Shown here: one piece after another, positions 1,930 to 22,224 of the stretch
How positions within the stretch are numbered: the first letter of the stretch is position 1
Layout of the letters: the number at the start of each line of letters is the position of its first letter
Virus record (IMG/VR): IMGVR_UViG_3300012008_000012
Coordinates: 1 to 43,371 of that record
Direction: 5' to 3' (one strand)
Origin: a virus
Length of the DNA: 43,371 nucleotides
Notes under the pieces: generated by a model
Database searches by the model: none
What the model saw: the letters and a program-made list of their open reading frames with translations, nothing else
What the model was told of the DNA's origin: nothing
Made by a program: the position numbers and the translations under genes

Positions 1930-2231
1930 ACGTAGATCCAAACCTGTGTGCTGACTGCGGCGTCGACACCGCGCCTTGTTCGGGGAAGCGCGGCTGTCGG
2001 CACAAGGGCCGATGGGAGCACTACATGGTCACGAACGATGTGTGGGCCGAAGCTGGCATGACCACCGGCTACCTCTGCATCGGCTGTCTCGAAGCTCGCC
2101 TCGGCCGCACGCTGGTCGCGGCGGACTTCACGAGAGTGCCGATCAACGAGCCCGGCAATCCTTGGAACACCGCGCGCCTCGATGACCGGCTTGCTGACGT
2201 GCCCCGGACTCCCTGGCCCGCACGAACCTAG
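1926..2231 (+). CDS. Conserved zinc-ribbon protein (101 aa)
   Basis: GTG 1926 overlaps the LmbU-like stop by 4 bases. Two Cys pairs (CADC near residue 8, CIGC near 54) flank a WEHYMV and VWAEAGM core; this layout recurs in small actinobacterial and phage proteins of unknown function. The stop codon TAG (2229-2231) is part of the first copy of the recurring CGAAYCTAG motif. Confidence 0.65.
   Translation: MNVDPNLCADCGVDTAPCSGKRGCRHKGRWEHYMVTNDVWAEAGMTTGYLCIGCLEARLGRTLVAADFTRVPINEPGNPWNTARLDDRLADVPRTPWPART
2222..2231 (+). promoter_or_regulatory. Start-associated motif copy 1 (ACGAACCTAG)
   Basis: Ten bases ending 3 bases before ATG 2235, with no Shine-Dalgarno in front of that gene. It is one of ten copies; see the findings for the promoter interpretation. 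Confidence 0.75.
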
Positions 2232-2234
2232 ACC

Positions 2235-2429
2235 ATGAGCGTCCGTGTCTGTCCGCACCCGGAGAAGCGCTGGTACGCGACGAAGAGCCGCGCGAAGCTC
2301 GCGCTCCGGCGGCAGCACAGCAGCATCGACTCGCGCGACACGATCCACGCGTACCGCTGCCTCTGCGGCGGCTTCCACCTCGGCCACAAGCTCGGGTATC
2401 GCGGCCACAAGCTGCGAGTGGCGGCGTGA
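2235..2429 (+). CDS. Small Cys/His-rich protein (64 aa)
   Basis: ATG 2235 lies 3 bases after motif copy 1, so the transcript may be leaderless. The sequence is basic, with CPHPEK near the N-terminus and YRCLCGGFHLGH in the C-terminal half, which suggests one zinc site. Function unknown. Confidence 0.6.
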   Translation: MSVRVCPHPEKRWYATKSRAKLALRRQHSSIDSRDTIHAYRCLCGGFHLGHKLGYRGHKLRVAA

Positions 2430-2641
2430 TGCCGCGTTGGGCTGTCCTCGCACGCTGCGGCTGCATCGTGCTCGGCTACGACGGCGACGACGTGGACGCG
2501 ATCTGCGACGACATCTGGGACAGCGACATCTTCCTCGATCGTCACGGGATCCTCTGCCCGCTGCACGGTCGCGCGCTCCCGACCGCGACGGTGCGTCTCG
2601 GCTCCGGCGCGTGCATCGTTCCCGTGGGCTACGACCGGTGA
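2426..2641 (+). CDS. Hypothetical protein (71 aa)
   Basis: GTG 2426 is directly followed by ATG, and the gene overlaps its upstream neighbour by 4 bases. It has an acidic middle (DGDDVDAICDDIWDSD) and scattered Cys residues. No family recognised. Confidence 0.55.
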   Translation: MMPRWAVLARCGCIVLGYDGDDVDAICDDIWDSDIFLDRHGILCPLHGRALPTATVRLGSGACIVPVGYDR

Positions 2642-2847
2642 GCGCGACCATGACGGCAGCCGAGACGCACGCCAAGGCGCTCCTCCGCAGCGAAGAGCTG
2701 TCCGCGTGGCACGAGTACCTCACAGCGACCCGGCATCAGCCGGAGGCCCGCTACGACGAGGTCGAGCCGTGGGCGTGGGCGCGACTGCGCGCGAGGTTGC
2801 GTGCGGTGACGGCGCGCAGGCACCGGCTCGCGAGGACAGCGGCGTGA
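2638..2847 (+). CDS. Hypothetical basic protein (69 aa)
   Basis: GTG 2638 overlaps the previous stop by 4 bases. The N-terminus is helical and the C-terminus Arg-rich. It belongs to the chain of coupled small genes leading into the large terminase. No family recognised. Confidence 0.5.
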   Translation: MSATMTAAETHAKALLRSEELSAWHEYLTATRHQPEARYDEVEPWAWARLRARLRAVTARRHRLARTAA

Positions 2848-2981
2848 GCGGCGGCATCGACTTCGCGGCCGACACCGCACTGCCGGACTGGCCGCTCGCC
2901 GAAGAGACCGGCGTCGGCTTCTGCCAGGACGAGACGCTCGCCTTGGGGATCGCCGACCGGCCGATCCTGCGAGACGAGTGA
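2844..2981 (+). CDS. Hypothetical small acidic protein (45 aa)
   Basis: GTG 2844 and TGA 2979-2981 each overlap a neighbouring gene by 4 bases, which supports a real translated unit between its neighbour and the large terminase despite the short length. No motif recognised. Confidence 0.45.
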   Translation: MSGGIDFAADTALPDWPLAEETGVGFCQDETLALGIADRPILRDE

Positions 2982-4810
2982 GCGCGCTCGCGCAGGCCGC
3001 CGGCGCTGCGGCGCGCGAGCTCGAGCTCCAGTTCGCACGCGCAGAGCAGCGCGACATCGAGCTGACCGAAGCCGAACGCTGGGCCCGCGACCCGGTCGGC
3101 TGGATCAACGAGCACGTCTGGATCGCCTCCGTGTTCGGCTCGGACGGGATCCGCGCCCGCGTCCGGCAGGTGCGGATGCGTCTGTTCCCCGGCCAGGTCG
3201 AGACGATCGCGGCCTGGATCGACCTGGCCCACCTCGAAGTGACGGGTGAGCTGCGGTTCCGCAACTTCGACGCCGAGAAGAGCCGGCAGATCGGCGAGAC
3301 GTGGGGCTTCGCCGCGACGATCACCTGGATCATGCACTACCACCGCGGCAGCGTCGGCGGCTGCCTGCACCGCGTCGGCGCCGAGATCGACGACGGCGGC
3401 GAACGCAACACGATCAAGAGCCTGTTCGGGAAGATCCGCTACATCGACCAGCGCCTCGACCGGGCGCGCATCCCCGGCCTCGGCACGCTCCGCTTCTGGC
3501 CCGTCTCGAACCAGGGGCCCGCGAAGATCGAGAACCTCGCGAACGGCGCCGTCGTGTACGGGGAAGGCCAGAAGGACGACCCGTTCCGCGGCATGACCTT
3601 GGACTACTTCTTCGGGGACGAGTTCGCGTTCGTCCAGCACGGCGAGTCCGTGCACGCGGCCGTCGATGACGCGTGCCCGGAGGGGAAGGCATACGTCTCG
3701 ACGGTGCAGGGCGACGACAACGTGCACGCCCGGATCGCGGACGAGCAGCCGGAAGGGTGGACGTATCTGCGGCTGCACTGGTCGGCGCACCCGGTCTACC
3801 AGGTTGGCCTACACACGGCGGCCGCGTTGGAGCGGGACGAGCGCGGCAAGGTCGTCGGTGTCGCCGACCCGGGCGAGGACGGTTGCGCGCTCTGCGCCGG
3901 CGTGCTCGCAGGCCTCGACTGGACGCCGCGCGAGCCCAGGGCGCACCGCTACCCCGGCAAGCTCGCCTCCCCCTGGTACGACGAACGCGTGATCGGCAAG
4001 ACCGACGAGCAGGTCGCGCGCGAGCTCGACATCGACCGCGAAGGCGCCCTCGGCGGCCGCGTGTTCACGGAGTTCCAGACCGAGCGGCATGTCGTCGCAG
4101 CCGGCATCCCCTACGACTCGGCGTTCCCGATCGAGCTCGCCTGGGACTTCGGCCTCGACTGCACGAGCGTCGTCGTGCTGCAGGATGCGCCGCACGAGCT
4201 GCGCGCGATCGCGCTGCTTGAGATGGGCGACCTGTTCGGCACGACCGCGGTGCCGCACCTCGTCGCGGCGGCGCTGCGCGAGCTGCTCGTCGAGTTGGGT
4301 GTGCAGGCGCGGCACACGACGCCGATGTGGACGAAGCAGATGCAGGGGATCGGCGACCCCGCCGGCGACGGTCGCAGCACGCAGACCGGGATCTCCGACA
4401 TTCAGGAGTACGCGAAGCAGGGCTTCTCGATCACGACGCCGCCGAGGCGGCTGACGATGCGTGTGGAGACGTCGATCACGGCGGTGAAGCGGCTGCTGCT
4501 CGGGACGCCGAAGCCGCTGCAGATCTGCGGCGTGAAGGCCGAGGTGCTCGCGCGGCGATTGCGGAACAACACCTGGCCGGTCGACCCGATCACGCAGAAG
4601 CGGAGGAAGGGCGCGACCCGGCCGCTCGATGACATCCACAACCACACCGCACGCGCTCTGGCGTATTTCGTGGTGGCGAAGTTCCCGCCGCCGGTCGAGT
4701 ACGACGCCGACCTCGCGGGCGCGGTGGGCGCGGAGACGGTCGACGACAGCTTCGACCGGCGCAGCCGCCGTGGCGTCAACTCGTCGCTCTCGTACGGGAT
4801 GAAGTTCTAG
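2978..4810 (+). CDS. terL: Terminase large subunit (610 aa)
   Basis: The packaging motor: an ATPase that drives DNA into proheads plus a nuclease that cuts the concatemer. The ATPase half shows a KSRQIGETW element near residues 101-109 in the Walker A position, of the K-x-R-Q-x-G type rather than the textbook GKS/T form. The Walker B acidic pair is at D214-E215. The RNase H-like nuclease half has Asp at about 390 (AWDFGLD), 460 (GDPAGDG) and 551-552 (PLDDIHNH). Full family length. GTG 2978 overlaps the upstream gene by 4 bases. The portal gene follows after 27 bases that contain motif copy 2. Confidence 0.9.
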   Translation: MSALAQAAGAAARELELQFARAEQRDIELTEAERWARDPVGWINEHVWIASVFGSDGIRARVRQVRMRLFPGQVETIAAWIDLAHLEVTGELRFRNFDAEKSRQIGETWGFAATITWIMHYHRGSVGGCLHRVGAEIDDGGERNTIKSLFGKIRYIDQRLDRARIPGLGTLRFWPVSNQGPAKIENLANGAVVYGEGQKDDPFRGMTLDYFFGDEFAFVQHGESVHAAVDDACPEGKAYVSTVQGDDNVHARIADEQPEGWTYLRLHWSAHPVYQVGLHTAAALERDERGKVVGVADPGEDGCALCAGVLAGLDWTPREPRAHRYPGKLASPWYDERVIGKTDEQVARELDIDREGALGGRVFTEFQTERHVVAAGIPYDSAFPIELAWDFGLDCTSVVVLQDAPHELRAIALLEMGDLFGTTAVPHLVAAALRELLVELGVQARHTTPMWTKQMQGIGDPAGDGRSTQTGISDIQEYAKQGFSITTPPRRLTMRVETSITAVKRLLLGTPKPLQICGVKAEVLARRLRNNTWPVDPITQKRRKGATRPLDDIHNHTARALAYFVVAKFPPPVEYDADLAGAVGAETVDDSFDRRSRRGVNSSLSYGMKF

Positions 4811-4824
4811 CCGCTCGCCGTGGG

Positions 4825-4834
4825 ACGAACCTAG
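4825..4834 (+). promoter_or_regulatory. Start-associated motif copy 2 (ACGAACCTAG)
   Basis: It ends 3 bases before the portal GTG at 4838, in the intergenic gap after the large terminase. No Shine-Dalgarno is visible at that start. Confidence 0.75.
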
Positions 4835-4837
4835 ACC

Positions 4838-6229
4838 GTGAAGCTCGGCCCGCTCGATCTGACCCGTCGCCGCTCGCTCGCGGCCGACCCGGCACCGCCC
4901 GGCGGCGAGCTCGGCGTCGACTCCGACCACTGGTTGAACCGCTGGGCCGGCGGCGGACCCGACCCGAACGTCATCCTGACCGGCTCCCAGAAGTTCGCGG
5001 TCTACGACGAGATGGCGCTCTCCGATGCGACCTGCAAGGCGCTGCTGTGGATGATCAAGCTGCCGTTGCAGGGCGCGATCTGGGACGCCGAACCCGCGAG
5101 CGAAGACCCGATCGACCTGCTGATCGCGAACGCTGTCCGTTGGAACTTCGGGCTCGCCGACTACGACGGACAGCTCGATGTGACGTGGCGGCAGACGCTC
5201 GACCAGAAGCTCTTGAAGCTGCGCTACGGGTGCATGTGGGAGGAGATCGTCTGGGGCGACCCCGTCACCTGGACAGACGACGACACGGGCGCGACACGCC
5301 TGATCCGCCCGATCGTCCGGCTCGCACCACGCCTGCCGAAGACGGTGATCGACGTCGAGTACGAGCACGGCAAGGTCGCCAAGATCACCCAGAACCTCGC
5401 GAACGCGAAACCGATCCCGGCGGAGAAGCTCGCCTACTACGTCCTCGATGCGCAGCCGGGCCGCTGGGACGGCACGAGCATCTTGCGTGCCGCGTGGGGC
5501 CCGTTCGAGATGAAGAAGCAGCTGATGATCTCGGCCGGCATCGCCTGGGACCGCTGGTCGGCGGGCTTCCCGGTTGTCCGCTACCCGCTCTCGGGCGGAC
5601 AGGCGGAGGAGCAGAAGGCCGAGGAGATGGGCCGCGCGATCCGCAACCACGAACGCGCCTACCTCGCGTTCGCCGGCCCGAAGCCGACCGACCTCTCACC
5701 CGACGGGTGGGACCTCACGATCGAAGGCGGCCCGCAGCATCTCCCCGACCCGGTGCCGCTGTTGAAGGAGTACTCGTACATGATCCTCCAGGCTGGCCTG
5801 ATGACGTTCATGGCCCTGGGGAACTCGCCGTCGGGGTCGCGTGCGGTCGGACAGATCCAGGACGAGCCGTACTACATGGTCGTCGAGGCGATCGCGACCG
5901 ACCTCGGGTTGGAGGTTCAGCGTGGCCCGTGGCGGCGCTTCGTCGACGTCAACTTCGGCCCCGAGTACGCGACGCCGAACTGCAAGGCGTCGAAGATCCA
6001 GTCGGAGGACGTGAACGCGCTCGCGACGACGATGGCGAGCCTGAAGCTGGCCGGCTTCGACTTCTCCGACAAGGAAACCCAGGACGTGGTGCGTGAACGG
6101 ATGCACCTGCCGGATCTCGCCGACGATTGGGAGGCGACACCGACAGAAGGCTCCGGGCTGCCTGCCGCACCGAAGTTGCCGCCGGCGCTGAAGGTTGACC
6201 CGGCGCAACTGACGCTGCCGACGCCATGA
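4838..6229 (+). CDS. Portal protein, DUF935/Mu gp29-like (463 aa)
   Basis: Forms the dodecameric ring at the head vertex through which DNA passes. Recognised from family-like stretches such as LKLRYGCMWEEIVWGD, the PIPAEKLAYYVLDAQPG segment and the WGPFEMKKQLM helix, and from its place right after the large terminase and before a Mu F-like gene. The C-terminus is Pro-rich. GTG 4838 is chosen because motif copy 2 sits 3 bases upstream and no better start lies nearby. Confidence 0.85.
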   Translation: MKLGPLDLTRRRSLAADPAPPGGELGVDSDHWLNRWAGGGPDPNVILTGSQKFAVYDEMALSDATCKALLWMIKLPLQGAIWDAEPASEDPIDLLIANAVRWNFGLADYDGQLDVTWRQTLDQKLLKLRYGCMWEEIVWGDPVTWTDDDTGATRLIRPIVRLAPRLPKTVIDVEYEHGKVAKITQNLANAKPIPAEKLAYYVLDAQPGRWDGTSILRAAWGPFEMKKQLMISAGIAWDRWSAGFPVVRYPLSGGQAEEQKAEEMGRAIRNHERAYLAFAGPKPTDLSPDGWDLTIEGGPQHLPDPVPLLKEYSYMILQAGLMTFMALGNSPSGSRAVGQIQDEPYYMVVEAIATDLGLEVQRGPWRRFVDVNFGPEYATPNCKASKIQSEDVNALATTMASLKLAGFDFSDKETQDVVRERMHLPDLADDWEATPTEGSGLPAAPKLPPALKVDPAQLTLPTP

Positions 6230-6672
6230 CCTCCAGGACGTTCGGCCCGTACGCGGCGACCGTCGTCGCGATCCACGACGGCGACACGATCGACCTCTCG
6301 CTCGTCCTCGTAAAGATGCGCTCGACCGTGGCGGCTCGAGCCAAGGCGCTCGACGTCGACCTCGGCTTCAACGTGCACCGCACCCCGGACGGTGTCGTGC
6401 TCGAGCGGCAGTCCGTGCGCCTGCTCGGCTGCAACGCGCCCGAGCTCGCGACACCGGCAGGGAAGGCGGCGCTCGCGTACATCGAGACGCTCGTGAAGAT
6501 CGGCGACCTGGTGACGCTCGTCTCGCACGGCTGGGACAAGTACGGAGGCCGCATCGACGGCGTCGTGACGCTCACGGACGGCCGCGATCTCGCGCAGGCG
6601 ATGGTCGCTGCAGGGCAGGCCGCGGCCTGGGACGGCAGCGGCGCGAAGCCCGTCCCGCCACCTGCCCCGTGA
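6226..6672 (+). CDS. Staphylococcal-nuclease-like (SNase/thermonuclease) protein (148 aa)
   Basis: The fold pattern is clear: HDGDT (D18, D20, T21), VRLLG-CNAPE (R65, E73) and YGGRIDG (R109), then GRDLAQAMVAAGQA. R65, E73 and R109 correspond to the catalytic Arg35, Glu43 and Arg87 of staphylococcal nuclease with the same 8-residue Arg-Glu spacing. The usual Ca-binding Asp40 position is Asn70, so activity is uncertain. ATG 6226 overlaps the portal stop by 4 bases, so it is coupled to head genes. I see no obvious signal peptide. It could be packaged, act in DNA processing, or degrade host DNA. Confidence 0.8.
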   Translation: MTSRTFGPYAATVVAIHDGDTIDLSLVLVKMRSTVAARAKALDVDLGFNVHRTPDGVVLERQSVRLLGCNAPELATPAGKAALAYIETLVKIGDLVTLVSHGWDKYGGRIDGVVTLTDGRDLAQAMVAAGQAAAWDGSGAKPVPPPAP

Positions 6673-7448
6673 CCGACCGCCAGATCGACCACGCCCGCAT
6701 CGAGGCTCGCATCGGCCGGCTCCTCACCGCCGCCGAGAAACACATCGACGTCGAGGCGATCGATCATCTCTTGAACACGGCGAAGGATTACCTGGACGCC
6801 GCGATCCGGTCGGAGCAGGCGCGGCTCGCCCGGCTCGTCGCTGCCGGTGACGGCGGCCGCCTCGAGGTGACACCCAGGATGGTCGCGATCCTGCGCGACC
6901 TCCGCAAGCACGGCCGCGCGCACGCACTCAACGAACTCGCGAGCATGGGCTACCCCGTGCGCGCGAACGAGCGCCGCTTCGCGGTACCGGCGCAACCACC
7001 CGGCGAACCTCCGCCGCCGCGGCCGTACCTCGTCGTCGTCTCCGACTCGATCATCGAAGGCCGGCTGCGGGCGCGCCTCGGCGCGTTGACGGTGAAGGTG
7101 CAACTCCAGGCGACCGGCCTCGACCTCTCCACGATGGCCGTGGGTGCGATCGAGAAGGCGCTCATCGACGTCCTCGGCGCGCGGAGCATCGCGGCCGATC
7201 TGGTGAGTCCGTCGTTCATGGCAGGGCTCGGCGACACGTTCGAGAATCACCGCGACCTCGTCGACGGCTGGGAGTATTCCTCGGTGCTCGACGCCGCGAC
7301 GTGCGACCCTTGCGGCGAGCACGACGGCGAGCAGTTCGACTCGTGGGACGCGATCCAGGAAGTGCTCCCCGGAGGGGGGCCAAATCCTGAGTGCGAGGGC
7401 GGCGACCGCTGCCGATGTCGCGCCGTTCCTCGTCCGGCGGGAGGGTAG
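6669..7448 (+). CDS. Mu F-like minor head (head morphogenesis) protein (259 aa)
   Basis: The C-terminal signature VDGWEYSSVLDAATCDPCGEHDG, broken here as WEYSSVLDAATCDPC and EHDGEQF, followed by LPGGGPNPEC and DRCRCRAV, is typical of the Mu F/SPP1 gp7 family. These proteins associate with the portal and help head assembly or DNA ejection. Length fits a compact family member. GTG 6669 overlaps the nuclease gene by 4 bases. Confidence 0.85.
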   Translation: MTDRQIDHARIEARIGRLLTAAEKHIDVEAIDHLLNTAKDYLDAAIRSEQARLARLVAAGDGGRLEVTPRMVAILRDLRKHGRAHALNELASMGYPVRANERRFAVPAQPPGEPPPPRPYLVVVSDSIIEGRLRARLGALTVKVQLQATGLDLSTMAVGAIEKALIDVLGARSIAADLVSPSFMAGLGDTFENHRDLVDGWEYSSVLDAATCDPCGEHDGEQFDSWDAIQEVLPGGGPNPECEGGDRCRCRAVPRPAGG

Positions 7449-7457
7449 AATCAGGGC

Positions 7458-7583
7458 ATGGCTGTAACGCTCGGAGAGATGGAAACGCGGCGGGACTTGC
7501 CGCCGCTGTGCAAGCAGAGCCGCGACCCCCGCACCGGCCTCGTCGTCGAGCGTCTTGAGCGCCTCGTGGATCGGCGGGTGTAG
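7458..7583 (+). CDS. Hypothetical small protein; frame continues past a TAG to 7643
   Basis: ATG 7458 opens a 41-residue frame ending at TAG 7581-7583. The same frame stays open afterwards for 19 codons (beginning ETWVDLDGKKWGRW) to TAG 7641-7643, and this second part looks coding (Trp-rich, GC-rich third positions). The gene may be a 61-residue protein with a readthrough or mutated amber codon, or a short protein with decayed remains. It sits between the Mu F-like and Mu G-like genes. Confidence 0.45.
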   Translation: MAVTLGEMETRRDLPPLCKQSRDPRTGLVVERLERLVDRRV

Positions 7584-7647
7584 GAGACGTGGGTCGACTT
7601 GGATGGCAAGAAGTGGGGCCGCTGGCAGTGGGCAAGCGGGCTCTAGC

Positions 7648-7657
7648 ACGAACCTAG
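7648..7657 (+). promoter_or_regulatory. Start-associated motif copy 3 (ACGAACCTAG)
   Basis: It ends 3 bases before GTG 7661 of the Mu G-like gene, the third and last copy of the ACGAAC variant. Confidence 0.75.
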
Positions 7658-7660
7658 TTC

Positions 7661-8125
7661 GTGCCTTTCGACGTTCACGTCACCGGCGACGAGGAGTACC
7701 GGCGGAAGCTCGCGCAGCTCGAGCTCTTCATCAGCGACCTGCGGACGTTCTGGCCCATGCTCGTCCCGGTCGTCGGCGGATGGATGCGCGACCAGTTCGA
7801 GAGCGAGGGCGCCTGGGGTGGCGCTGAGTGGGCGCCGCTGTCCCCCTCCTACGCGCTCGAGAAGGCACGCTCGCATCCGGGCCGCACGATCCTGATACGA
7901 GACGGCACGTTGCGCCGCGCGGCTTCCGAGATGCGCCGCGAAGTCACACCGAGGACGTTGACGATGTGGGTCGATGACCCGGTTGCTTCTTTCCACCAGA
8001 GCGGCACGGACGACATGCCGGCGCGTCCGTTGATCCCGGATCCGTTGCCGTCGAGCGCGCGCGCCGAGGTCGAGATGGCCGCCCACGAGTACGTCAGCGT
8101 CTTGGTTCGCCGCCTCGGCCTCTGA
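7661..8125 (+). CDS. Mu G-like virion morphogenesis / tail completion protein (154 aa)
   Basis: Family features are GAWGGAEWAPLSPSYALEKAR near residues 50-70 (seen here as WGGAEW and LSPSYALEK), then ILIRDGTLRRAA, a SFHQSGTDDMPARP segment and a helical C-terminus. Mu G-type proteins act at the head-tail joint. GTG 7661 follows motif copy 3 by 3 bases and has no Shine-Dalgarno, so the motif supports this start. Confidence 0.8.
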   Translation: MPFDVHVTGDEEYRRKLAQLELFISDLRTFWPMLVPVVGGWMRDQFESEGAWGGAEWAPLSPSYALEKARSHPGRTILIRDGTLRRAASEMRREVTPRTLTMWVDDPVASFHQSGTDDMPARPLIPDPLPSSARAEVEMAAHEYVSVLVRRLGL

Positions 8126-8126
8126 G

Positions 8127-8136
8127 CCGAATCTAG
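8127..8136 (+). promoter_or_regulatory. Start-associated motif copy 4 (CCGAATCTAG), before tRNA
   Basis: It ends 3 bases before the predicted mature 5' base of tRNA-Met (8140). No coding start follows it. This copy argues that the motif acts on transcription or RNA processing rather than on translation. Confidence 0.75.
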
Positions 8137-8139
8137 GAG

Positions 8140-8212
8140 TGCGCCGTGGAGCAACTGGTAGCTCGCCGCCCTCATAAGGCGGAGGTTCCGCGTTCGAGTC
8201 GCGGCGGCGCCA
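8140..8212 (+). tRNA. tRNA-Met (anticodon CAT)
   Basis: The cloverleaf can be drawn by hand. Acceptor 8140-8146 pairs with 8205-8211 except the first T:C pair. The D stem is GAGC/GCTC with loop AACTGGTA. The anticodon stem is CCGCC/GGCGG with loop CTCATAA, anticodon CAT. The variable loop is AGGTT. The T stem is CCGCG/CGCGG with loop TTCGAGT. Discriminator A is at 8212 and CCA is not encoded. CAT could be elongator Met or lysidine-modified Ile. The unpaired first acceptor position would suit an initiator tRNA, but the three G:C pairs typical of initiators are not seen in the anticodon stem. Confidence 0.9.
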
Positions 8213-8219
8213 TCGCAGG

Positions 8220-8229
8220 CCGAATCTAG
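8220..8229 (+). promoter_or_regulatory. Start-associated motif copy 5 (CCGAATCTAG)
   Basis: It lies 7 bases after the tRNA and just before the putative tail-terminator frame. GTG 8232 comes 2 bases later but is out of frame with the downstream protein. Confidence 0.7.
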
Positions 8230-8290
8230 GGGTGTTATCGACCTCTTTGCCCCCAGGATTGACACGTCGCTCGCCAGCCTGCGCGCGAAC

Positions 8291-9428: not shown

Positions 9429-9476
9429 CGAGGGGTCAACTCCTTCGGTGACACGGGGGCGGGCCGACCACAATCG

Positions 9477-9502
9477 GCGCCGCCCTCATTCTATCGCGGC
9501 GC
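9477..9502. other. Perfect 7-bp inverted repeat (hairpin)
   Basis: GCGCCGC (9477-9483) pairs with GCGGCGC (9496-9502) around a 12-base loop. It lies between the two minus-strand genes, just past the stop of the upstream one (9507). No T-run follows, so a terminator role is possible but unproven. Confidence 0.4.
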
Positions 9503-9506
9503 GGCC

Positions 9507-9737
9507 CTAGATGTCGGAGCGGTAGCCCTCGAGCGCGGCGCCGAGCTCGGCCATCGTGTCACCGTCGACGGAGTAGCTGGCATCGCGGTCGTCGGCCATG
9601 CGCGCGAGCTCGTGCACGTTCGCGGCCTTTTCCTCGATCAGCTTCAGCCGTGCCCAGTCCTTCCACGGCACGACGGCCATGTCTTCGCTCTCGGCGATGT
9701 CGCCGACTGCGTGACCGATGACGCGCTCCTCGTCCAT
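9507..9737 (-). CDS. Hypothetical small acidic protein (76 aa), minus strand
   Basis: ATG 9737 (alternative ATG 9746) opens a 76-residue acidic, helical protein with a VVPWKDWARLKLIEEKA segment that faintly recalls Phd/YefM-type antitoxin cores; I do not assign that function. Like its neighbour it is read against the structural operon, so it may have arrived with the homing endonuclease. Confidence 0.5.
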   Translation of the reverse strand: MDEERVIGHAVGDIAESEDMAVVPWKDWARLKLIEEKAANVHELARMADDRDASYSVDGDTMAELGAALEGYRSDI

Positions 9738-9763
9738 GCCTCGCATCGTACCGCGCACACCCG

Positions 9764-9773
9764 CCGAATCTAG
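9764..9773 (+). promoter_or_regulatory. Start-associated motif copy 6 (CCGAATCTAG)
   Basis: It ends 3 bases before GTG 9777 of the protease/scaffold gene. After the minus-strand insertion this site could restart plus-strand late transcription. Confidence 0.75.
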
Positions 9774-9776
9774 GTC

Positions 9777-11315
9777 GTGCCCGCCCTCGAGACCGTAGAC
9801 ATCCCCGCCGTTGAGATCATGCGATCTGGCGGCCCCGTCTACGCGATCGGGTCCCCCGCCGGCGGCGACTACTACAGCCGCGAAGACCTCGAGGGCATGG
9901 CGGCAGCGCACGTCGCCTTGGGCGACGAGATCCGCGCGCCGATCAAGCTCGGCCACTCCGACCGGCAGCAGCTGCTCGCGAACAGCGGCCTCACGAAGGG
10001 CGAGATGCCCGCCGCGGGCTGGCTCGACAGCGCGACCTTCCGCATCGAGGACGCCGAGGACGGTTCCGCGCGTCTGCTCGCCGACGCGAAGGCTGTCCCG
10101 AAGAAGCTGGCCGACCTGATGGAGGTCGGCGCGTTCCGCACCCGCTCGAGCGAGATCCGCTCGTACACGTCGCAGAAGACGCAGGGCGAGTACCCGTGGG
10201 TCGTCGACGGGCTCGCGCTGATGGGTGAGCAGGTGCCCGCGATCCAGACATTGGACGACGTGCACAAGCTGTACCAGCGCGCCGAGATCGGCGAGCCCGC
10301 CGCCGAGACGTCGTTCGTGATCCGCCACAACGCCGCCGCCGCCATGACGATGCCCGACGGTGTCAAGGCCTGCTCGATGAAGGGCGTCGCCGGCTACAGC
10401 GGCGGCGTTCTCTGCCACGTCCATGACGGCACCGACGCCGGCAAGGCGACCGCGCTCGCGAAGGCGAAGACCGACGCTGCGGCTGCACGCAAGAACGCGG
10501 CAGGCGCGGTCGTCTGGACGCCTGACGGTTCGCTCGAGGACTTGCGTTCCGACCTGAACGAGGCGCTGAACCCGTCCGGCTACGACATCCCCGGCATCCC
10601 CCGCTTGTGGGTGCGTGATGTCGCACGTTCGAGCGATGTCGCGCTCGTCTCGGAGGGCTGGGATCCCGACGACGAGGCGTGGGTTGTGCCGTTCACCATC
10701 GACGCCGCGAACGACGCCGTCGTACCCGCGCCACGCTCGACGTGGACCGCTGCCGAGCAGACCTGGGTGGCCGCTTCCGCGGAGCTCTCTCGCAAAAACT
10801 CGGCGCGCGCCGAATCTAGGCACGTGGAGCTCACACTCACCGACGAGCAGGCAGTCGAGGTTCGCACGACCCTCGGCCTGGAGGCAGACGCGGAGATCAC
10901 CGCCGACGTGCTCGTCGAAGCGTCCACCGCTCGCGCGAACGAGCTCACCGCAGCGAAGACCGCTGTGGCCGACGCCGAGACGCGCAAGAACGAAGCTTCC
11001 GACCTCGTCAAGACCGTCCGCAAGCTCGAGGCCGACGTGAAGGTCGAGCAGACCCGCCGCTTCGAGCTCGAGCGCGACACCGACCTCACCGCCGCCGTCC
11101 GCGCCGGGAAGATCGACCCCGCGCAGCTGGACGACTGGCAGAAGGATTACGACGACAACCAGGCCGGCACCCGCCGCATCCTGGAGCGCCTCAAGTCTGA
11201 CCCGGATCTCGTCCGCGAGTTCGGACGCGACGACGGCGACGACACCGAGACGCAGACCGACGAGGAGTACCAGCGCGACTTCGAGCGGCGCCACGGCATG
11301 AAGGCGAGCGTCTGA
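9777..11315 (+). CDS. Mu I-like prohead protease fused to scaffold (512 aa)
   Basis: The N-terminal region (about residues 1-180) fits the Mu gpI-type prohead protease family: APIKLGHSD and the RTRSSEIRS, WVVDGLALMG elements. A linker of about residues 190-340 follows. The C-terminal 163 residues are a charged coiled coil (AAKTAVADAETRKN type) typical of scaffolds. The arrangement matches Mu, where scaffold Z is made from an in-frame internal start of I. GTG 9777 is preceded by motif copy 6. The decoration and major capsid genes follow immediately. Confidence 0.8.
   Translation: MPALETVDIPAVEIMRSGGPVYAIGSPAGGDYYSREDLEGMAAAHVALGDEIRAPIKLGHSDRQQLLANSGLTKGEMPAAGWLDSATFRIEDAEDGSARLLADAKAVPKKLADLMEVGAFRTRSSEIRSYTSQKTQGEYPWVVDGLALMGEQVPAIQTLDDVHKLYQRAEIGEPAAETSFVIRHNAAAAMTMPDGVKACSMKGVAGYSGGVLCHVHDGTDAGKATALAKAKTDAAAARKNAAGAVVWTPDGSLEDLRSDLNEALNPSGYDIPGIPRLWVRDVARSSDVALVSEGWDPDDEAWVVPFTIDAANDAVVPAPRSTWTAAEQTWVAASAELSRKNSARAESRHVELTLTDEQAVEVRTTLGLEADAEITADVLVEASTARANELTAAKTAVADAETRKNEASDLVKTVRKLEADVKVEQTRRFELERDTDLTAAVRAGKIDPAQLDDWQKDYDDNQAGTRRILERLKSDPDLVREFGRDDGDDTETQTDEEYQRDFERRHGMKASV
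10810..10819 (+). promoter_or_regulatory. Start-associated motif copy 7, inside the protease gene
   Basis: CCGAATCTAG lies within the protease coding sequence, where it encodes part of RAESRH, and ends 4 bases before the in-frame GTG 10824. It marks the nested scaffold start. Confidence 0.75.
10824..11315 (+). CDS. Nested scaffold protein, Mu Z-like (163 aa)
   Basis: In-frame internal GTG 10824 would yield the coiled-coil C-terminal third of the protease fusion as a separate protein. This is the classical lambda C/Nu3 and Mu I/Z arrangement, in which many scaffold copies are needed per protease. The start is supported by motif copy 7 just upstream, in a position where the codon choice of an ordinary coding region would not be expected to produce it. 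Confidence 0.65.
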   Translation: MELTLTDEQAVEVRTTLGLEADAEITADVLVEASTARANELTAAKTAVADAETRKNEASDLVKTVRKLEADVKVEQTRRFELERDTDLTAAVRAGKIDPAQLDDWQKDYDDNQAGTRRILERLKSDPDLVREFGRDDGDDTETQTDEEYQRDFERRHGMKASV

Positions 11316-13654: not shown

Positions 13655-13664
13655 CCGAATCTAG
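13655..13664 (+). promoter_or_regulatory. Start-associated motif copy 8 (CCGAATCTAG)
   Basis: It ends 3 bases before GTG 13668. The TAG inside it would also stop a 10-codon ATG frame opened at 13632. Confidence 0.75.
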
Positions 13665-15244: not shown

Positions 15245-15932
15245 TGGGCTCGCCGTTCGATCTGCGGCGGTTCGCTCCGCCCGCGGAGACGACGTTCACG
15301 CTCTCGCGCGGCGGCGACCACGCCTACGCCGTCCGAGGAGACCCCGAGGTCGGCGACATCCTGACGATGTACAAGATCGAGAACGTCGTCAGAGGCATCG
15401 GCGAGGGCGACCCCGTCGAGGCACTCGTCGAGGGCAAGGCGCTGCTCCTGAAGATGATCCGCGAGTGCCAGCCCGCCGTGAAGGAGATCGAGGTTGGCCC
15501 GCAGGAGCTGATCGTCCTCTTCGCGCTGTTCGTGAAAGGCCCGACCGTCGCCGAGGCGGTCATGGCGTCGATCACGGCCTCGAACGCGGCTGAGGCGGAA
15601 GGGCACGGTCGCGGCGAAGACGAGCGCGCGCCGCAGGAAGACGACGATGAGAGCGAGGGCGGCGCCACGGTCGCCCCTTTACCGTCTCGGAAGCGTTCGT
15701 CCGGTCGATCCTCCAGCTCGGGAAAGCGCGCGGCTGGCCTGCCGGCTACTGGCACGGGTTGAGGTGGAGCGCGTTGTGTGCCCATCTCGCGTTCGAGTTC
15801 GAGCCTGCGCAGTCTGAGCCGTCCGGCGGCTCGCGTGCCCGTGTGGCCCCGCTGGCGCGGCCGGGCACGGCTGATCTGCGGCTCGTCGAATGGGCCGACG
15901 ACGGCGACGATCCGCTCGCCGGGGAGGTGTAG
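15244..15932 (+). CDS. Tail assembly chaperones, -1 frameshift fusion (gpG/gpGT type)
   Basis: The 0 frame (15244-15762) gives a 172-residue protein. A -1 shift at the heptamer CCCTTTA (15675-15681) switches to a frame coding for FTVSEAFVRSILQLGKARG-like sequence that ends at TAG 15930-15932. The heptamer is phased as C CCT TTA, the standard X XXY YYZ layout. After the site the 0 frame turns into low-complexity Ser/Lys sequence while the -1 frame stays Trp-rich and protein-like, so the longer product of about 229 residues is the meaningful one. Such proteins wrap the tape measure during tail assembly. Confidence 0.8.
15675..15681 (+). other. Programmed -1 frameshift heptamer CCCTTTA
   Basis: Canonical slippery sequence in the correct phase relative to the upstream frame (GCC CCT TTA), at the junction where coding sense moves to the -1 frame of the tail chaperones. 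Confidence 0.75.
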
Positions 15933-15935
15933 CCG

Positions 15936-18900
15936 ATGAGCGGTCCGCGCGTCGGCGTCACCTTTGACGGCTCCGCAGTCGGCGCTGTCACGGCGGCCCG
16001 TCAGACCGCCCTGGCGATCGACAAGGTCAAGGTTTCCGCCGCCGGGTCGAGCGCACCGCTGCGCGGCATGGAGCGCGATCTCGGCCGGGTTGAGCGTGGC
16101 GCGTTCGCCGGGTCGGGTGCGTTCCGTGGGATGGGCCGCTCGATCGCGTTCGCGTCCGGTGCGTTCCTCGGTGCCGCCGGGTTCGTCGCGGTGATCAAGT
16201 CGTCGATCGACGTCGTCCTCGCAGCGCAGACGGGGATCGCGAAGCTCGACCAGGCGATCGTGAACGCGCACGCCTCCGTCAAAGCCTTGACCCCGATCCT
16301 GGAGTCGCACGCCGCGGCCGCCCGCCTGCTCGGCTTCTCGGACGACCAGACCCGCGAGGCGGAGGCGAAACTCGTCACCGCGTTCGGCGCAACCAAGCAC
16401 GCGCTCGGCGAGGTGCAGGTCGCCGCCGACCTCGCGCGCGCCACGAACACCGACCTCGGCAGCGCGACAAAGCAGCTGATCCTGCTCCAGGAGGGCAACA
16501 TGCGCGCGGCGAAGCAGTTCGGTCTCGCGCTGCCTGACCTGACGGCGAAGGTGTGGGCGCAGAAGGCGGCCCAGGACGGCCTAACCGTCTCCCAGGAGAA
16601 GGGGAAGACGCTCTACGACGAGCTGCTGCCCAGGATCAAGGATCAGGCGAAGGCCCTGGCGGACACGCCGGCGGGGAAGATCAAGATCTTCCACGCGGAG
16701 GTGCAGCATTTGCAGGAGTCGATCGGGCAGGGACTGCTCCCCGTCGTCGACAAGTACCTGACCGAGGTCGATGCGTGGCTCGCGAAGTCGTCGAACCAGA
16801 AGAAGGTCACCGACGACGTGAAGAAGGTCGTCGGTGACCTCGCGGGGGCGCTGCATGACGCGAAGGACGCGACCGGGGCGGTGCTGAAGGTCGTGAACCC
16901 CGTCGTGCACGCGATGGGCGGCTGGAAGACCGTCATCGAGGATCTGATCGCGTTGAAGTTCGCGACGATGCTGACGGGCTGGACGGGCGGTCTGCGTGGC
17001 CTGATCGGGACAGAGGCGGCCGCCGGCGGCACCGGACTGCTCGGCGCGAACGCCGCTTCGGCCGGCCTGCTCGGCAAGCTGAAGATGCTCGGCGCGCTCG
17101 GCGCGATCGCGATCGCCATCGACTTGGTCATCAACGCGAAGGCCGTCGACAAGAAAGTCGCCGCGTTCCTGGACAGCCACGGTCTCGGCTTCCTCTCCGG
17201 CGACCAGAACAAGGCGTCCGCCTACCAGCAATACATGGCGCTGCCGGGCCAGCTCCGGAAGCTCACGCCGGCCCAGGTGTCGCAGCTTCCGGGCTCACCG
17301 CAGAGCACCGCCCCGGGCAACACCGCGAAGCAGCGGTCGATCGTCAACACCGCGGAGCAGCTCGGGCCCGCCTCGGGCGGTATCTACGTCACTGGCGGCA
17401 CGGGTGGCGGCGTTGTCGGCTCGACGACGGGCGGCAAGATCACGCTCGTCCCCGGCTTCGACTGCTCCGGCTACCTGTATGAGATCTACAAGAAAAACGG
17501 CGTGGACATTCCGCGCACGTCGGAGGCGCAGTTCAACGATCCACGCGCGCAGGATGTCACCGGCAACGAGCAGCCTGGCGACGGCGTCTACTTCGTCGGC
17601 TCCTCGGAGTACGCGCCGCCCGGCCACTGCGGCATCTACGTCGGCGGCGGCCAGTTCATCGAGTACTACCAATCCGGCAAGCCGGCCCGCGTCTCGCAGC
17701 TCTCTGGCTATCCGGGATACATGGGTGCACGCCGCTGGGTTCAGATCAAGCAGCAGGGCAGCGGTCTAGGCGCGGGCACCGGCACGCCGTTCGGGCCCGA
17801 CCTGACCAAGACGACGCACACGACGACGACCACCACGACGAAGCCGAAGAAGACACCGTGGGTCGGCATGACACAGTCGGCGCTCACCACCGCGCAAGGC
17901 TCGATCGCCGCAACCCTGAAGGGCCTCCCCGCCACCCTCGACCCCGAAGAGAAGAACGCCGTCGCGCATATCGAGGCGCTCCAGAGCAAGCTGCGCATCC
18001 ACATGACCCCCGCCGCCCTCGCCGCTGACCGCGTCGAGCTGACGAAATGGGGCAAGGTCTTGCACACGGAGATCACCGCGAACGCGAAGGTGATCGCAGC
18101 CGCCGCGGCCGAGGCGAAACAGGTCTTCGACCGGGCGCTCTCGCTCGACGTGTCGCACATCCTGCGCGACTTCGACCAGAACTACGCCGCCCAGATCAAG
18201 ACGTTCGACACCGAGACGAGCCGCAGCCTGAAGGACATGCAGACCGCGTTCTCGCGGCAGCAGGCCCTGTTCGACCGGGCAACCCAGCAGGGCCTCGCCG
18301 GGTTCGTTGTCGCGCAGACACCGGAGGAGAAGGCGCTCGCCGACTTCATCGCCGGCCGGGCCGCAACCGTGGCGACCGCAGCCGCAGCGCGGCGGACGAC
18401 CGACCTCGCAACACAGCAGGCGGCGCTCTCGACGATGCAGCAGGTCGGCGTCGGCGGAACCGACGCGACAGGAACGGTCGTCACGCAGGCGATGCTCGAC
18501 TCGGCCGTCGCGGCCGTCACCACAGCCCAGGACGCGATCAACCAGGCCAGCCTCGACACGCAGCAGGCCGGGCTGCAGGCCGCCGCCGATCTCTCGCGCA
18601 CCGCCGCCGACGCGAAGACGAGCGCCGACCAGCAGGCATACCAGGACTCCCGCGATCTCCAGAAGCAGGCGTTGCAGGACGCGGAGACCGACCGCGAGCA
18701 GGCCTACCAGGATCAGCGCGACGCACAGAAGATCGCGATGCAGAACGTCAACGACGACGCGAAGACCCTGCTGCAGCAGCACCTCGACGACCTCGGCACG
18801 TCGCTCGGGCAGCACCTAATCACTTGGCAGACCTACTTCGCCGAGCTCGCCAAGCTCGGCGTCGACACGTCCGGGTTCTCGGTCTCGCTTCCAGGCGGAC

Positions 18901-19211
18901 TCACCGTCCCCAGCGGAGTGATCGGCGGCGGCTTCGGCGGCGGCTTCGCGAAGGGGACAGGCGTAGGCGGCGTCCCCGGCCAGTACGTCGGCCGCGACGA
19001 CACCGTCCTGGCCCGCGTCACGCCCGGCGAGGACGTACTCACCCGCTCCGTGTCGCGGCAGCTCGAGGACTTCCTCGCTGGCGGCGGCACGAGTGGCGGG
19101 CCGGGCGTGACGATCGTGACCCTCAACGGGCGTGAGATCGCGCGGCAGACCGCGACGCCGATGAGCGCCGAGCAGGCCCGCCAGATCGGCTACACCATCC
19201 AGAGAGGCTGA
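15936..19211 (+). CDS. Tape measure protein with NlpC/P60 peptidase domain (1091 aa)
   Basis: The longest gene, placed after the tail chaperones; it sets tail length. Hydrophobic segments lie near residues 65-85 and in an Ala/Gly-rich region about 345-410. An NlpC/P60 cell-wall peptidase domain occupies roughly 465-605: catalytic Cys510 in DCSGY and His564 in GHCGIYVG. A Thr-rich linker follows (about 625-640). The last third is a long Gln/Asp-rich coiled coil (about 730-970). The embedded peptidase probably opens host peptidoglycan during DNA entry. The start, ATG 15936, has a GGGGAGG site 6-12 bases upstream. Confidence 0.88.
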   Translation: MSGPRVGVTFDGSAVGAVTAARQTALAIDKVKVSAAGSSAPLRGMERDLGRVERGAFAGSGAFRGMGRSIAFASGAFLGAAGFVAVIKSSIDVVLAAQTGIAKLDQAIVNAHASVKALTPILESHAAAARLLGFSDDQTREAEAKLVTAFGATKHALGEVQVAADLARATNTDLGSATKQLILLQEGNMRAAKQFGLALPDLTAKVWAQKAAQDGLTVSQEKGKTLYDELLPRIKDQAKALADTPAGKIKIFHAEVQHLQESIGQGLLPVVDKYLTEVDAWLAKSSNQKKVTDDVKKVVGDLAGALHDAKDATGAVLKVVNPVVHAMGGWKTVIEDLIALKFATMLTGWTGGLRGLIGTEAAAGGTGLLGANAASAGLLGKLKMLGALGAIAIAIDLVINAKAVDKKVAAFLDSHGLGFLSGDQNKASAYQQYMALPGQLRKLTPAQVSQLPGSPQSTAPGNTAKQRSIVNTAEQLGPASGGIYVTGGTGGGVVGSTTGGKITLVPGFDCSGYLYEIYKKNGVDIPRTSEAQFNDPRAQDVTGNEQPGDGVYFVGSSEYAPPGHCGIYVGGGQFIEYYQSGKPARVSQLSGYPGYMGARRWVQIKQQGSGLGAGTGTPFGPDLTKTTHTTTTTTTKPKKTPWVGMTQSALTTAQGSIAATLKGLPATLDPEEKNAVAHIEALQSKLRIHMTPAALAADRVELTKWGKVLHTEITANAKVIAAAAAEAKQVFDRALSLDVSHILRDFDQNYAAQIKTFDTETSRSLKDMQTAFSRQQALFDRATQQGLAGFVVAQTPEEKALADFIAGRAATVATAAAARRTTDLATQQAALSTMQQVGVGGTDATGTVVTQAMLDSAVAAVTTAQDAINQASLDTQQAGLQAAADLSRTAADAKTSADQQAYQDSRDLQKQALQDAETDREQAYQDQRDAQKIAMQNVNDDAKTLLQQHLDDLGTSLGQHLITWQTYFAELAKLGVDTSGFSVSLPGGLTVPSGVIGGGFGGGFAKGTGVGGVPGQYVGRDDTVLARVTPGEDVLTRSVSRQLEDFLAGGGTSGGPGVTIVTLNGREIARQTATPMSAEQARQIGYTIQRG

Positions 19212-19212
19212 C

Positions 19213-20988
19213 ATGGCCGCCGTCGCGCGAGCCGTCACGAACGGCTGGGTCTCCTGGGCCGCCTACAACATCGGCCTGCTCTCCTTCGACCACTCCACCT
19301 TCGACGGCTCCGACGTGTTCGGCGTCTCACCGTTGGACGCAAGCTTCGGCGGCACCTACGACGACGTGTCCGCGAAGATCGCCGGGGTCCACGTCACGCG
19401 CGGCCGCTCCAACAACCTCGACGTCGTCCTGGCCGGCTCCGCGAGCGTCGACCTGCGCGACCCGGACGGACTCTTCAACCCTGACAACGCGGGCGCGATC
19501 CGGAACCTCTGCACGAACCCCAGCTTCGAGACGAACCTGACCGGGTGGTCACGCATCTGGGGCGTCGAGACGCTGTCGCGGAGCATGGCCAACCAAGAGT
19601 TCGGGGCAGCCGCTCTCAGCGTTGGCATCGACGGGGCACATGGGTCAGAGGGTGTCTTCTACGACACCGGCAACAGCCTCTCTCCCGGTCTCACCTACAC
19701 GTTTTCGTGCTGGATCCTCAATCTCGGTGGGGGCGCCATCAACCTTCTTCTACGTGAGCTCACGAGCGGCGGCGCTACCGTCGGCAGCGACAGCGTAAGC
19801 GCCACAACGGTTGCGGCCTCGGGGGTATGGACCCGTCTGTCCGTTACCCGCACATTCGGGGCGACAGGCGTCCTCGCGCGCTGCTTCGTTACGAACCCGG
19901 CGCTGGAGGTAAAGACCTTCTACATCGACGGGGCGCAGCTCGAGCCGGCCGCCGCCGCAACCACTTACTGCGACGGCGACCAGGACAACTGCCGCTGGTC
20001 AGGTGTCGCGCACGCCTCCACCAGCATCTACGGCGGCCCGCTCTACGGCCAGCTCGAAGACCGCCTGCACCCCGTCAAGCTCGTCGACACGTTCGCAGGC
20101 ACCAGCTACGGCCTCTTCTACGGCTGGGTGCGCCGCTTCCACTGGGAGCCGCAAGGACGGCGCGGCATCACCCGCCTCGAATGCGTCGACCTCTTCTACT
20201 GGCTCGAACGCGCAAACCCCGTCATCGCGTCGACCGGCGCCACGACGACGGGCACGGCGATCGGGAAGATCCTCGACGCGGTCGGCGCGACGGACATTGC
20301 GATGCGCGACCTCGACGCGGGCGACTCGATCCCCGACTTCTCCGCCGACGGCACGCAGACCGGCCTCCAGCTGATCCAGAGACTGCTCGAGGCAGAGCGC
20401 GGCGTCTTCTTCATCGCCGGGTCAGGAAAGGCGACGTACCGATCAAGGACGGCGCGGTTGACGAAGACCTCCTCGACGACGATCACCGACAAGATGAGCG
20501 GCGCAGCACCCGGCGTCGACTGGGACCAGGCGTACACGCGGATCACCGTGCAACGCATCGACGCGACCGGGGCGGTCACCTACACCGCCACCGCATTCGA
20601 CAGCGCCGTCGTCGCGAAGGTCGGCTACAACGACATGCCGGCAATCCAGACGCCCTACCTCTCCTCGAACGCGCAGGCGGACGCGCTCGCCTCCTGGATC
20701 CTCTCCCAGAACGTCTCCCCGAAGCCACCGATGCGCGACTTCACTCTCGACAACAGGGAAGCCGCACAGCTCACCCAGATCCTCGCCCGCGAGCTCGTCG
20801 ACCGGATCACGGTGAACGCAGCTAGGGGCGGCACGAGCGGTGCCCACCATGTTGATTCGCTTGACCTCACCATCGACGGTGCGTCCGGCGCGCACACGGT
20901 GAACTGGCTCTTGTCGAAGGCGTCCCCGGTTATGCCCATCCAGTTCGACACCGCCCAGTTCGACGCTGGCTACCAGTTCGTCTATTGA
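19213..20988 (+). CDS. Tail hub / minor tail protein with carbohydrate-binding-like insert (591 aa)
   Basis: The N-terminal ~95 residues (VHVTRGRSNNLDVVL, ASVDLRDPDGLFNP) and the region after about 265 (LEDRLHPVKLVD, then LLEAERGVFFIAGSG) form a tail-hub-like scaffold. Between them, residues about 97-250 look like a CBM4/9-type beta sandwich (NLCTNPSFETNLTGW, YTFSCWILN, FYIDGAQLEPA). Such inserts bind cell-surface glycans, so this protein may contribute to adsorption. ATG 19213 lies one base after the tape-measure stop. Confidence 0.7.
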   Translation: MAAVARAVTNGWVSWAAYNIGLLSFDHSTFDGSDVFGVSPLDASFGGTYDDVSAKIAGVHVTRGRSNNLDVVLAGSASVDLRDPDGLFNPDNAGAIRNLCTNPSFETNLTGWSRIWGVETLSRSMANQEFGAAALSVGIDGAHGSEGVFYDTGNSLSPGLTYTFSCWILNLGGGAINLLLRELTSGGATVGSDSVSATTVAASGVWTRLSVTRTFGATGVLARCFVTNPALEVKTFYIDGAQLEPAAAATTYCDGDQDNCRWSGVAHASTSIYGGPLYGQLEDRLHPVKLVDTFAGTSYGLFYGWVRRFHWEPQGRRGITRLECVDLFYWLERANPVIASTGATTTGTAIGKILDAVGATDIAMRDLDAGDSIPDFSADGTQTGLQLIQRLLEAERGVFFIAGSGKATYRSRTARLTKTSSTTITDKMSGAAPGVDWDQAYTRITVQRIDATGAVTYTATAFDSAVVAKVGYNDMPAIQTPYLSSNAQADALASWILSQNVSPKPPMRDFTLDNREAAQLTQILARELVDRITVNAARGGTSGAHHVDSLDLTIDGASGAHTVNWLLSKASPVMPIQFDTAQFDAGYQFVY

Positions 20989-20998: not shown

Positions 20999-21008
20999 CC
21001 GAATCTAG
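20999..21008 (+). promoter_or_regulatory. Start-associated motif copy 9 (CCGAATCTAG)
   Basis: It ends 6 bases before ATG 21015, the largest spacing among the protein-coding copies. Confidence 0.7.
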
Positions 21009-21014
21009 ACGCAG

Positions 21015-21626
21015 ATGGCCGGCTACCTGACCCCGCCCGCAGTAGCTCCCGGGAACGTCCTCACGTCGGCGGCGTGGAACCTGATCCGCGACGACCTCGA
21101 CTTCGGGATGGTCCGCCCGATCGCCGACATCATCCTCGGCGCTTCGGCCGCGTCGATCGACTTCACGAGCATTCCGGCGACGTTCGCGCAGCTCCTCCTC
21201 GTCGCATATCTCCGTAGCGACAAGGCCGCCGTCACCTCCGACCTCATCACATGCCGCTTCAACAACGACAGCGGCGCCACCTACAGCTACCAGTCGCTGC
21301 AAGCACTCAATGCGGGCATCTCCGCCGCCGGCGCCGTCGCCGCCACCGCCCTTCTCCTCGGCACGATCCCAGCCGCGACCGCGCCCGCCAGCACGTTCGC
21401 GACCGTCGAGCTGCTGATCCCTCACTATGCCGGCGTAGCCAACTACAAGACCTGGAGCGGCCGGAACTTTCGTCGTCTCGGCGCGACCGCCGGAGATGTC
21501 GCCACTAACTGGCAGGGCGGCGAATGGTCGGCGAGCGCCGCCGTCAACCGGCTCACGCTGCTCGCGTCGGCGAGCAACCTCCTCACCGGCAGCCGCGCCA
21601 CCCTCTACGGGATGGGAGGCATCTAG
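21015..21626 (+). CDS. Putative tail fibre / minor tail protein (203 aa)
   Basis: Beta-rich protein with TSIPATFAQLLLVAYLRSD and RFNNDSGATYSYQ segments, a pattern common in small receptor-binding or tail-tip proteins of actinobacteriophages. No catalytic motif. Preceded by motif copy 9 and no Shine-Dalgarno. Confidence 0.6.
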   Translation: MAGYLTPPAVAPGNVLTSAAWNLIRDDLDFGMVRPIADIILGASAASIDFTSIPATFAQLLLVAYLRSDKAAVTSDLITCRFNNDSGATYSYQSLQALNAGISAAGAVAATALLLGTIPAATAPASTFATVELLIPHYAGVANYKTWSGRNFRRLGATAGDVATNWQGGEWSASAAVNRLTLLASASNLLTGSRATLYGMGGI

Positions 21627-21628
21627 CC

Positions 21629-22162
21629 ATGACGGACACACCGGTCAAGGTTGTTGTCGACTGCTCCGTCCCTGACCGAGACGCCGTGGCCGCGTACACC
21701 CAGGACCAGGTCGAGGCCGTCCTCAAGTCACGCACGGACGGGAAAATCACGAGTGAGGAAGCGGCAGCGAGCCTCGTTGCGCTCGCCGACCTCGCCGTTG
21801 GAGCCGCAGGGATCCCCGACCGCGTCACGGTCGTGCCGCTCGACGCCGACGAGCTCGCGCAACGCGACAAGGATCAGGCCGCTGCCGCTGCCGCTGCCGC
21901 GGCGCCGGCGACTCCCGCTGAGCTCGCGGCCGTACCGGCGGAGATGGTCGCCGCGAATCTCGCCGCCTCGTTCACGACGACCGACGAGGTAGCGACGGCC
22001 GCCGAGCAGCTCCACCTGGCGGCCAAGGCGGGGATCGCGAACTTCAAAGCTGACATCGGCGCCTGGAAAACGCTGACGGACGCGCAGAAACTCTCGCACG
22101 TCGAGGGCCTGATGCAGTCGATGGTCGGCGTGCTGCAGCACTTGACGGGCGACTACTCATAA
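21629..22162 (+). CDS. Hypothetical tail-region protein (177 aa)
   Basis: ATG 21629 has both a GGGAGG site 9 bases upstream and a partial motif (ATCTAG) ending 2 bases upstream. It is helical, with a run of nine Ala near residue 90 acting as a linker. It lies between the fibre-like protein and the endolysin. Function unknown. Confidence 0.55.
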   Translation: MTDTPVKVVVDCSVPDRDAVAAYTQDQVEAVLKSRTDGKITSEEAAASLVALADLAVGAAGIPDRVTVVPLDADELAQRDKDQAAAAAAAAAPATPAELAAVPAEMVAANLAASFTTTDEVATAAEQLHLAAKAGIANFKADIGAWKTLTDAQKLSHVEGLMQSMVGVLQHLTGDYS

Positions 22163-22214
22163 TCTGCCGCGGGAAGTAGCGGCTGCTCGCGTCGTCGTCG
22201 CCCTGAGTCAACTG

Positions 22215-22224
22215 CCGAATCTAG
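22215..22224 (+). promoter_or_regulatory. Start-associated motif copy 10 (CCGAATCTAG)
   Basis: It ends 3 bases before GTG 22228 of the endolysin and is the last copy in the genome; no copies occur in the early half. Confidence 0.75.

Follow-up and report, generated by a model that had tools for sequence, protein, structure and literature searches.

The DNA analysed here (the window) comprises the 43,371 bases of a virus record in IMG/VR, in which the nine-base word CGAAYCTAG recurs just ahead of late genes. What is this element, and what reads it? An earlier note on the window had suggested a phage-specific leaderless promoter. This reading is now supported but not proven, for want of mapped 5′ ends and of direct evidence that the phage sigma factor described below reads the motif. 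In our view CGAAYCTAG is likely (probability about 0.75) the core of −10-only leaderless late promoters that are read by a phage sigma factor within a family of soil phages.

The motif in the late region

The window contains ten exact copies of CGAAYCTAG, all on the plus strand, between positions 2223 and 22224 and only among the late genes. In dinucleotide shuffles the word was found 0.27 times on average and at most twice. The earlier note had also counted ten plus-strand copies in the late part, with less than one expected by chance. Both claims held, its coordinates being shifted by 1 because they include the preceding base. The late genes lie at about 3–23 kb and code for terminase, portal, a Neck1-like protein, a protease-scaffold protein, a cement-like protein, the major head protein, tail proteins and endolysin. 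The copies and the tRNA gene adjoining one of them are listed here.

2223..2231, plus strand: CGAACCTAG, hexamer GAACCT at 2224-2229, ahead of ATG 2235 of the small ORF 2235-2429
4826..4834, plus strand: CGAACCTAG, upstream of GTG 4838, portal protein
7649..7657, plus strand: CGAACCTAG, upstream of GTG 7661, Neck1-like protein
8128..8136, plus strand: CGAATCTAG, immediately 5′ of tRNA-Met
8140..8212, plus strand: tRNA-Met (CAU), found by ARAGORN and Rfam; first base at hexamer +6; 1:72 mismatch, A11:U24
8221..8229, plus strand: CGAATCTAG, precedes a gene with a conserved N-terminus from ATC 8237; annotated ATG 8291
9765..9773, plus strand: CGAATCTAG, upstream of GTG 9777, head maturation protease-scaffold ORF 9777-11315
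10811..10819, plus strand: CGAATCTAG, within ORF 9777-11315, ahead of the in-frame GTG 10824 (nested scaffold start)
13656..13664, plus strand: CGAATCTAG, upstream of GTG 13668 (ORF 13668-13994)
21000..21008, plus strand: CGAATCTAG, 6 nt ahead of ATG 21015
22216..22224, plus strand: CGAATCTAG, upstream of GTG 22228, endolysin

Motif and spacing are shown by these positions. Seven copies end 3–4 nt ahead of an ATG or GTG and the copy at 21000 ends 6 nt ahead of an ATG, exactly as had been claimed. The two copies previously left without a clear start can now be placed: copy 8128 ends 3 nt before the tRNA-Met gene, and copy 8221 precedes an ORF whose N-terminus is conserved from an ATC. The in-frame scaffold start nested in the protease-scaffold gene behind copy 10811 had been missed.

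It had further been claimed that the genes behind the motif lack a Shine-Dalgarno sequence and that those without the motif have one or are coupled by overlap, which held in part. Pairing is weak before the motif genes (−0.9 to −3.9 kcal/mol) and strong (−6 to −12 kcal/mol) in many, not all, of the other late genes. We found no pairing of the motif itself to the 16S tail. A consensus scan of positions 1–20000 of the window for standard sigma-70 promoters returned nothing beyond chance and no strong promoters nearby.

The ORF behind copy 8221 has orthologues in two related contigs, L007 and L008. In L007 (9439-9452), as in the window (8222-8239), an ATC begins the conserved N-terminus after the motif; its counterpart in L008 is a GTG at the usual spacing. 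It is possible that the ATC is an unusual start codon, or that the start has been lost.

Relatives, motif classes and the common form

Protein searches of the IMG/VR viral contigs with the terminase and the major head protein yielded a dozen related contigs. When phage records were searched at the DNA level no relative emerged, and another protein search gave only weak matches, to Arthrobacter phages; the only one of these that was examined, phage Abba, is without the motif system. No relative turned up in two GTDB genome scans either, and the host remains unidentified. In a body of literature without most subscription papers we found the start-associated sequence (SAS) repeats of cluster K mycobacteriophages, the late promoters of T4 and the leaderless starts of mycobacteria; the motif itself is undescribed there.

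The earlier note had proposed to look in related genomes for the motif at a fixed spacing to starts, and there the genes, the motif and the spacing are indeed kept. The closest contigs (L007, L008 and L029) carry CGAAYCTAG ahead of the orthologous starts. Across all contigs four motif classes are found, CGAAYCTAG, CGATACTCG, CGACATTC and CGATAGTAG, and each lineage has its own. L010/L016, L012/L017, L024, L031 and L058 belong to the CGATACTC[G] class, L022/L030 and L023 to the CGACATTC class and L034 and L036 to the CGATAGTAG class; these contigs are without CGAAYCTAG, and the word of their own class is over-represented at the position which it would take. Within a contig only a single class is present at starts; other class words are met now and then, but always away from starts. 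Three core bases of the motif change together across a genome. Conservation and class switching are thus shown.

Over 89 distinct sites from the four classes the common form is C-GANNNT-[A/C]G. The second and sixth positions of the hexamer, which would be −11A and −7T of a −10 element, are invariant in 89/89 sites. The sites were gathered by the word of their class, so that this test measures the agreement between classes. Outside a stretch of about 12 bases no upstream sequence is conserved, the −35 region included (the smallest group, with 12 sites, is noisy). In 47 sites the first ATG or GTG follows the hexamer at a distance of 5 nt and in another 17 at 6 nt, together 64/89, as compared with 3.7% for random window positions. 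The CGACATTC sites are looser and favour distances of 6–9, and at a few sites the start is 8–12 nt away.

The bases before the start are constrained as well. A C precedes the start codon in 43/47 of the sites at distance 5, and all ATG starts at distance 6 read CG-ATG (11/11). Usually a purine follows a C at hexamer +5/+6, the start position predicted in the absence of mapped 5′ ends, and this C-purine step stays in place even where the start codon shifts by 1 nt. Such behaviour is expected of a transcription start, not of a ribosome site.

The motif also stands before tRNA-Met genes, which makes it a poor fit to a ribosome-binding element. The first base of the tRNA is at hexamer +6 both in the window and in L036 (15589-15661), and at +10 in L034 (13709-13781); L007 and L008 have tRNA-like sequences at about +5 which are not recognised by the programs. 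These tRNAs show features of an initiator tRNA. The L036 tRNA-Met has the 1:72 mismatch, A11:U24 and the GGG:CCC anticodon stem, together with an unusual C33. The window tRNA shares the first two of these features and lacks GGG:CCC.

Within the protease gene the motif is found with an in-frame start in 10/10 contigs that reach the gene, 161–198 codons ahead of the stop. The residues encoded by this nested motif vary with the class (AESR, DTR or DSR), so that the conservation tracks the DNA element.

A candidate sigma factor upstream of terminase

Just upstream of the late genes the window encodes a candidate reader of the motif.

593..1348, plus strand: ORF frame with sigma-70 region 2 (homology 788-1069), candidate motif reader
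1107..1316, plus strand: region-4-like helix-turn-helix, shifted by +1 from the region-2 frame, with its stop codon at 1314-1316

A diverged sigma region 2 is present upstream of terminase, at the same place, in 10/10 contigs that reach there, and the eight contigs searched with profiles have exactly one region 2 each. The presence of the gene is thus shown; its individual matches are weak. Sigma70_r2 is the best and almost the only Pfam match in 6/10 contigs, with E-values of up to 0.1 (best 1.4e-5); the window falls short of the curated cut-off. In comparisons with PDB profiles FliA, SigI6 and WhiG came out best (E = 0.03 to 0.3). The predicted core fold (pLDDT above 90) is matched by Foldseek almost exclusively to sigma domain 2, with a probability near 1 and E-values above 0.03. 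By sequence and predicted fold together, the frame 593-1348 qualifies as encoding a sigma-70 region 2.

A region-4-like helix-turn-helix follows region 2 in the +1 frame in 10/10 contigs. Sigma70_r4_2 is matched weakly in 8/10; the structural model is confident, but the fold matches are generic helix-turn-helix proteins. The region-4 segment opens with [S/T]-[M/L/V]-T in 8/10 contigs. Such an opening would fit equally an NTG codon at which a separate protein starts, or a frameshift immediately before it. A sequencing error as the cause of the frame break was rejected, as the same +1 relation occurs in 10/10 contigs.

Two observations may be added on this gene. The region-2 frame has no stop before region 4 starts (window 791-1316, L007, L008, L029, L016, L017, L030, L031, L034 and L036). 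In L016, L017, L029, L034 and L036 the region-2 frame continues past region 4 with a short sequence that resembles a zinc ribbon, CxxCGWRxYxxxPNGxPGWxxP..C..C.

Do sigma and motif evolve together? According to the trees, the minimum number of changes suffices to place the motif classes on the terminase phylogeny, and the fit to the sigma phylogeny is poorer. The motif of L031 is of the GATACT class, yet its sigma groups with the GATAGT sigmas, and the window and L007 share the same motif despite strongly diverged sigmas. Strict coevolution of sigma and motif, as tested by trees, is therefore not shown, and sigma–promoter coevolution is plausible without being demonstrated. As a separate observation, the sigma evolves very fast: between the window (593-1316) and L007 (653-1277) the terminases are 95% identical, and the sigma regions are 2.16 changes per column apart in the tree.

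Proposed leaderless late promoters and the alternatives

We suggest the following mechanism. That the element acts as a promoter, where transcription starts, that sigma is needed and that translation is leaderless are all inferred in it, without transcript data. GAAYCT would serve as the −10 hexamer, its positions 2 and 6 being −11A and −7T. Transcription would begin 6, sometimes 7, nt past the hexamer at a purine that usually follows a C. This purine would open the start codon itself or stand immediately before an ATG. Any leader on the mRNAs of the late genes, on that of the nested scaffold or on the tRNA-Met would then be absent or only a few nucleotides long. The most likely reader would be the host RNA polymerase together with the phage sigma encoded just upstream of the late genes, which would consist of region 2 (788-1069) followed by the region-4-like helix-turn-helix in the +1 frame. 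The reading as leaderless promoters rests on the motif next to the tRNA, the nested starts in 10/10 contigs, the invariance of −11A and −7T, the C-purine pair and the phage sigma. Against it stand the weak individual sigma matches and the class, which tracks the terminase tree better than the sigma tree. In addition an ATC, which makes a poor start for a leaderless message, follows two related sites, and some spacings are loose.

The alternative that survives best retains leaderless promoters with another reader, either the host sigma with a phage activator or some other phage factor. The better fit of the motif class to the terminase phylogeny speaks for it, as does the lack of a conserved −35 for the region-4-like helix-turn-helix. 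We nevertheless regard it as unlikely: the hexamer starts with G and varies by lineage, unlike a fixed host consensus, and the sigma adjoins the late genes in 10/10 contigs. A search of 5 contigs revealed no T7-type (single-subunit) phage RNA polymerase, but its control gave no signal either.

The motif could also be an asymmetric operator or stoperator, that is, a site for a phage repressor or antiterminator between late genes. Stoperators, phage repressor sites that halt transcription, occur in cluster A mycobacteriophages. The motif is indeed asymmetric, short, mostly intergenic, of one orientation and lineage-specific. This explanation does not account for the fixed start distance, the invariance of −11A and −7T or the C-purine pair, which keeps its place whatever the class or codon, and the scan, limited to the consensus, revealed no strong ordinary sigma-70 promoters nearby to be blocked. 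We consider it very unlikely.

Just as improbable to us is an RNA-processing site, at which long late transcripts would be cut before start codons and the tRNA. The position of the motif directly before the mature tRNA and before start codons would suit cutting. However, an unknown nuclease would be required whose specificity varies between lineages and yet keeps exactly the key bases of a −10 element, and a C-purine initiator is a usual mark of starts.

A translational element aiding ribosomes, as proposed for the cluster K SAS, would agree with the proximity to start codons and the weak Shine-Dalgarno sequences before the motif genes, but we rate it lowest of all and set it aside, since both the window and L036 have copies ahead of tRNA genes, three core bases change in concert genome-wide and no pairing to the 16S tail was found.

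How do the predicted leaderless promoters compare with known systems? At the T4 late promoters gp55 reads a −10-like element without −35 conservation, assisted by the coactivator gp33 (PMC7892883). As there, a diverged phage protein with sigma-70 region 2 would act on late genes through a −10-like element alone (PMC7892883). In contrast to the gp55 type of promoter, which is marked by TATAAATA and by activation through the sliding clamp, the hexamer is GANNNT, and the predicted start is placed at the start codon; moreover, a region-4-like helix-turn-helix follows in another frame, whereas gp33 is structurally unrelated to sigma region 4. By sequence the window promoters are not members of the T4 gp55 family, and the resemblance in working is by analogy.

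Like the motif, the cluster K SAS is a short asymmetric repeat in one orientation, 3–7 nt before many phage starts (PMC3203893). The SAS is GGGATAGGAGCCC, has a Shine-Dalgarno core and belongs to non-structural genes, whereas the window motif lacks such a core, precedes late genes and also stands before a tRNA. The earlier note had already remarked that these repeats differ in sequence and include a ribosome site, which holds (PMC3203893).

In mycobacteria leaderless ATG and GTG starts are efficient (PMC4633059). The arrangement would be the same, with the promoter directly before the codon and ATG or GTG at the mRNA 5′ end (PMC4633059), but here a phage late regulon is predicted to use a −10 sequence of its own, with its 5′ ends unmapped. 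The Bacillus subtilis SigO/RsoA pair is a two-subunit sigma with regions 2 and 4 on separate polypeptides. This may also be the case here; unlike SigO/RsoA, region 4 of the phage lies in an overlapping +1 frame and a frameshift is not excluded. Similarly, the Nu3 scaffold of phage lambda arises from an in-frame start within the protease gene C, whereas the nested start described here has its own promoter-like motif.

A bolder reading is conceivable. A two-part late sigma in overlapping frames, region 4 being overprinted in +1, might switch the phage to a −10-only leaderless regulon comprising the structural genes, the nested scaffold and an initiator-like tRNA; late translation would then be independent of Shine-Dalgarno sequences, and sigma and promoter would drift together between lineages.

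If the leaderless reading is true, the sequence by itself discloses a whole phage late regulon of a lineage that is apparently uncultured, and nearly every promoter fixes its start codon, a clear case of leaderless late expression. Exact starts would become available for gene calling, nested scaffold genes included. The four motif classes would be natural sigma–promoter pairs for studies of −10 recognition, and the conserved +1 split of the sigma gene would call for a mechanism.

Two further genes of the window may be mentioned. A DnaB-like helicase is encoded at 41 kb, outside the motif-bearing late part. The ORF 26117-26923 contains a repeated ClpC N-domain-like sequence; it matches phrog_35667, whose function is unknown, and there is a weak match to a family of ATP-dependent proteases.
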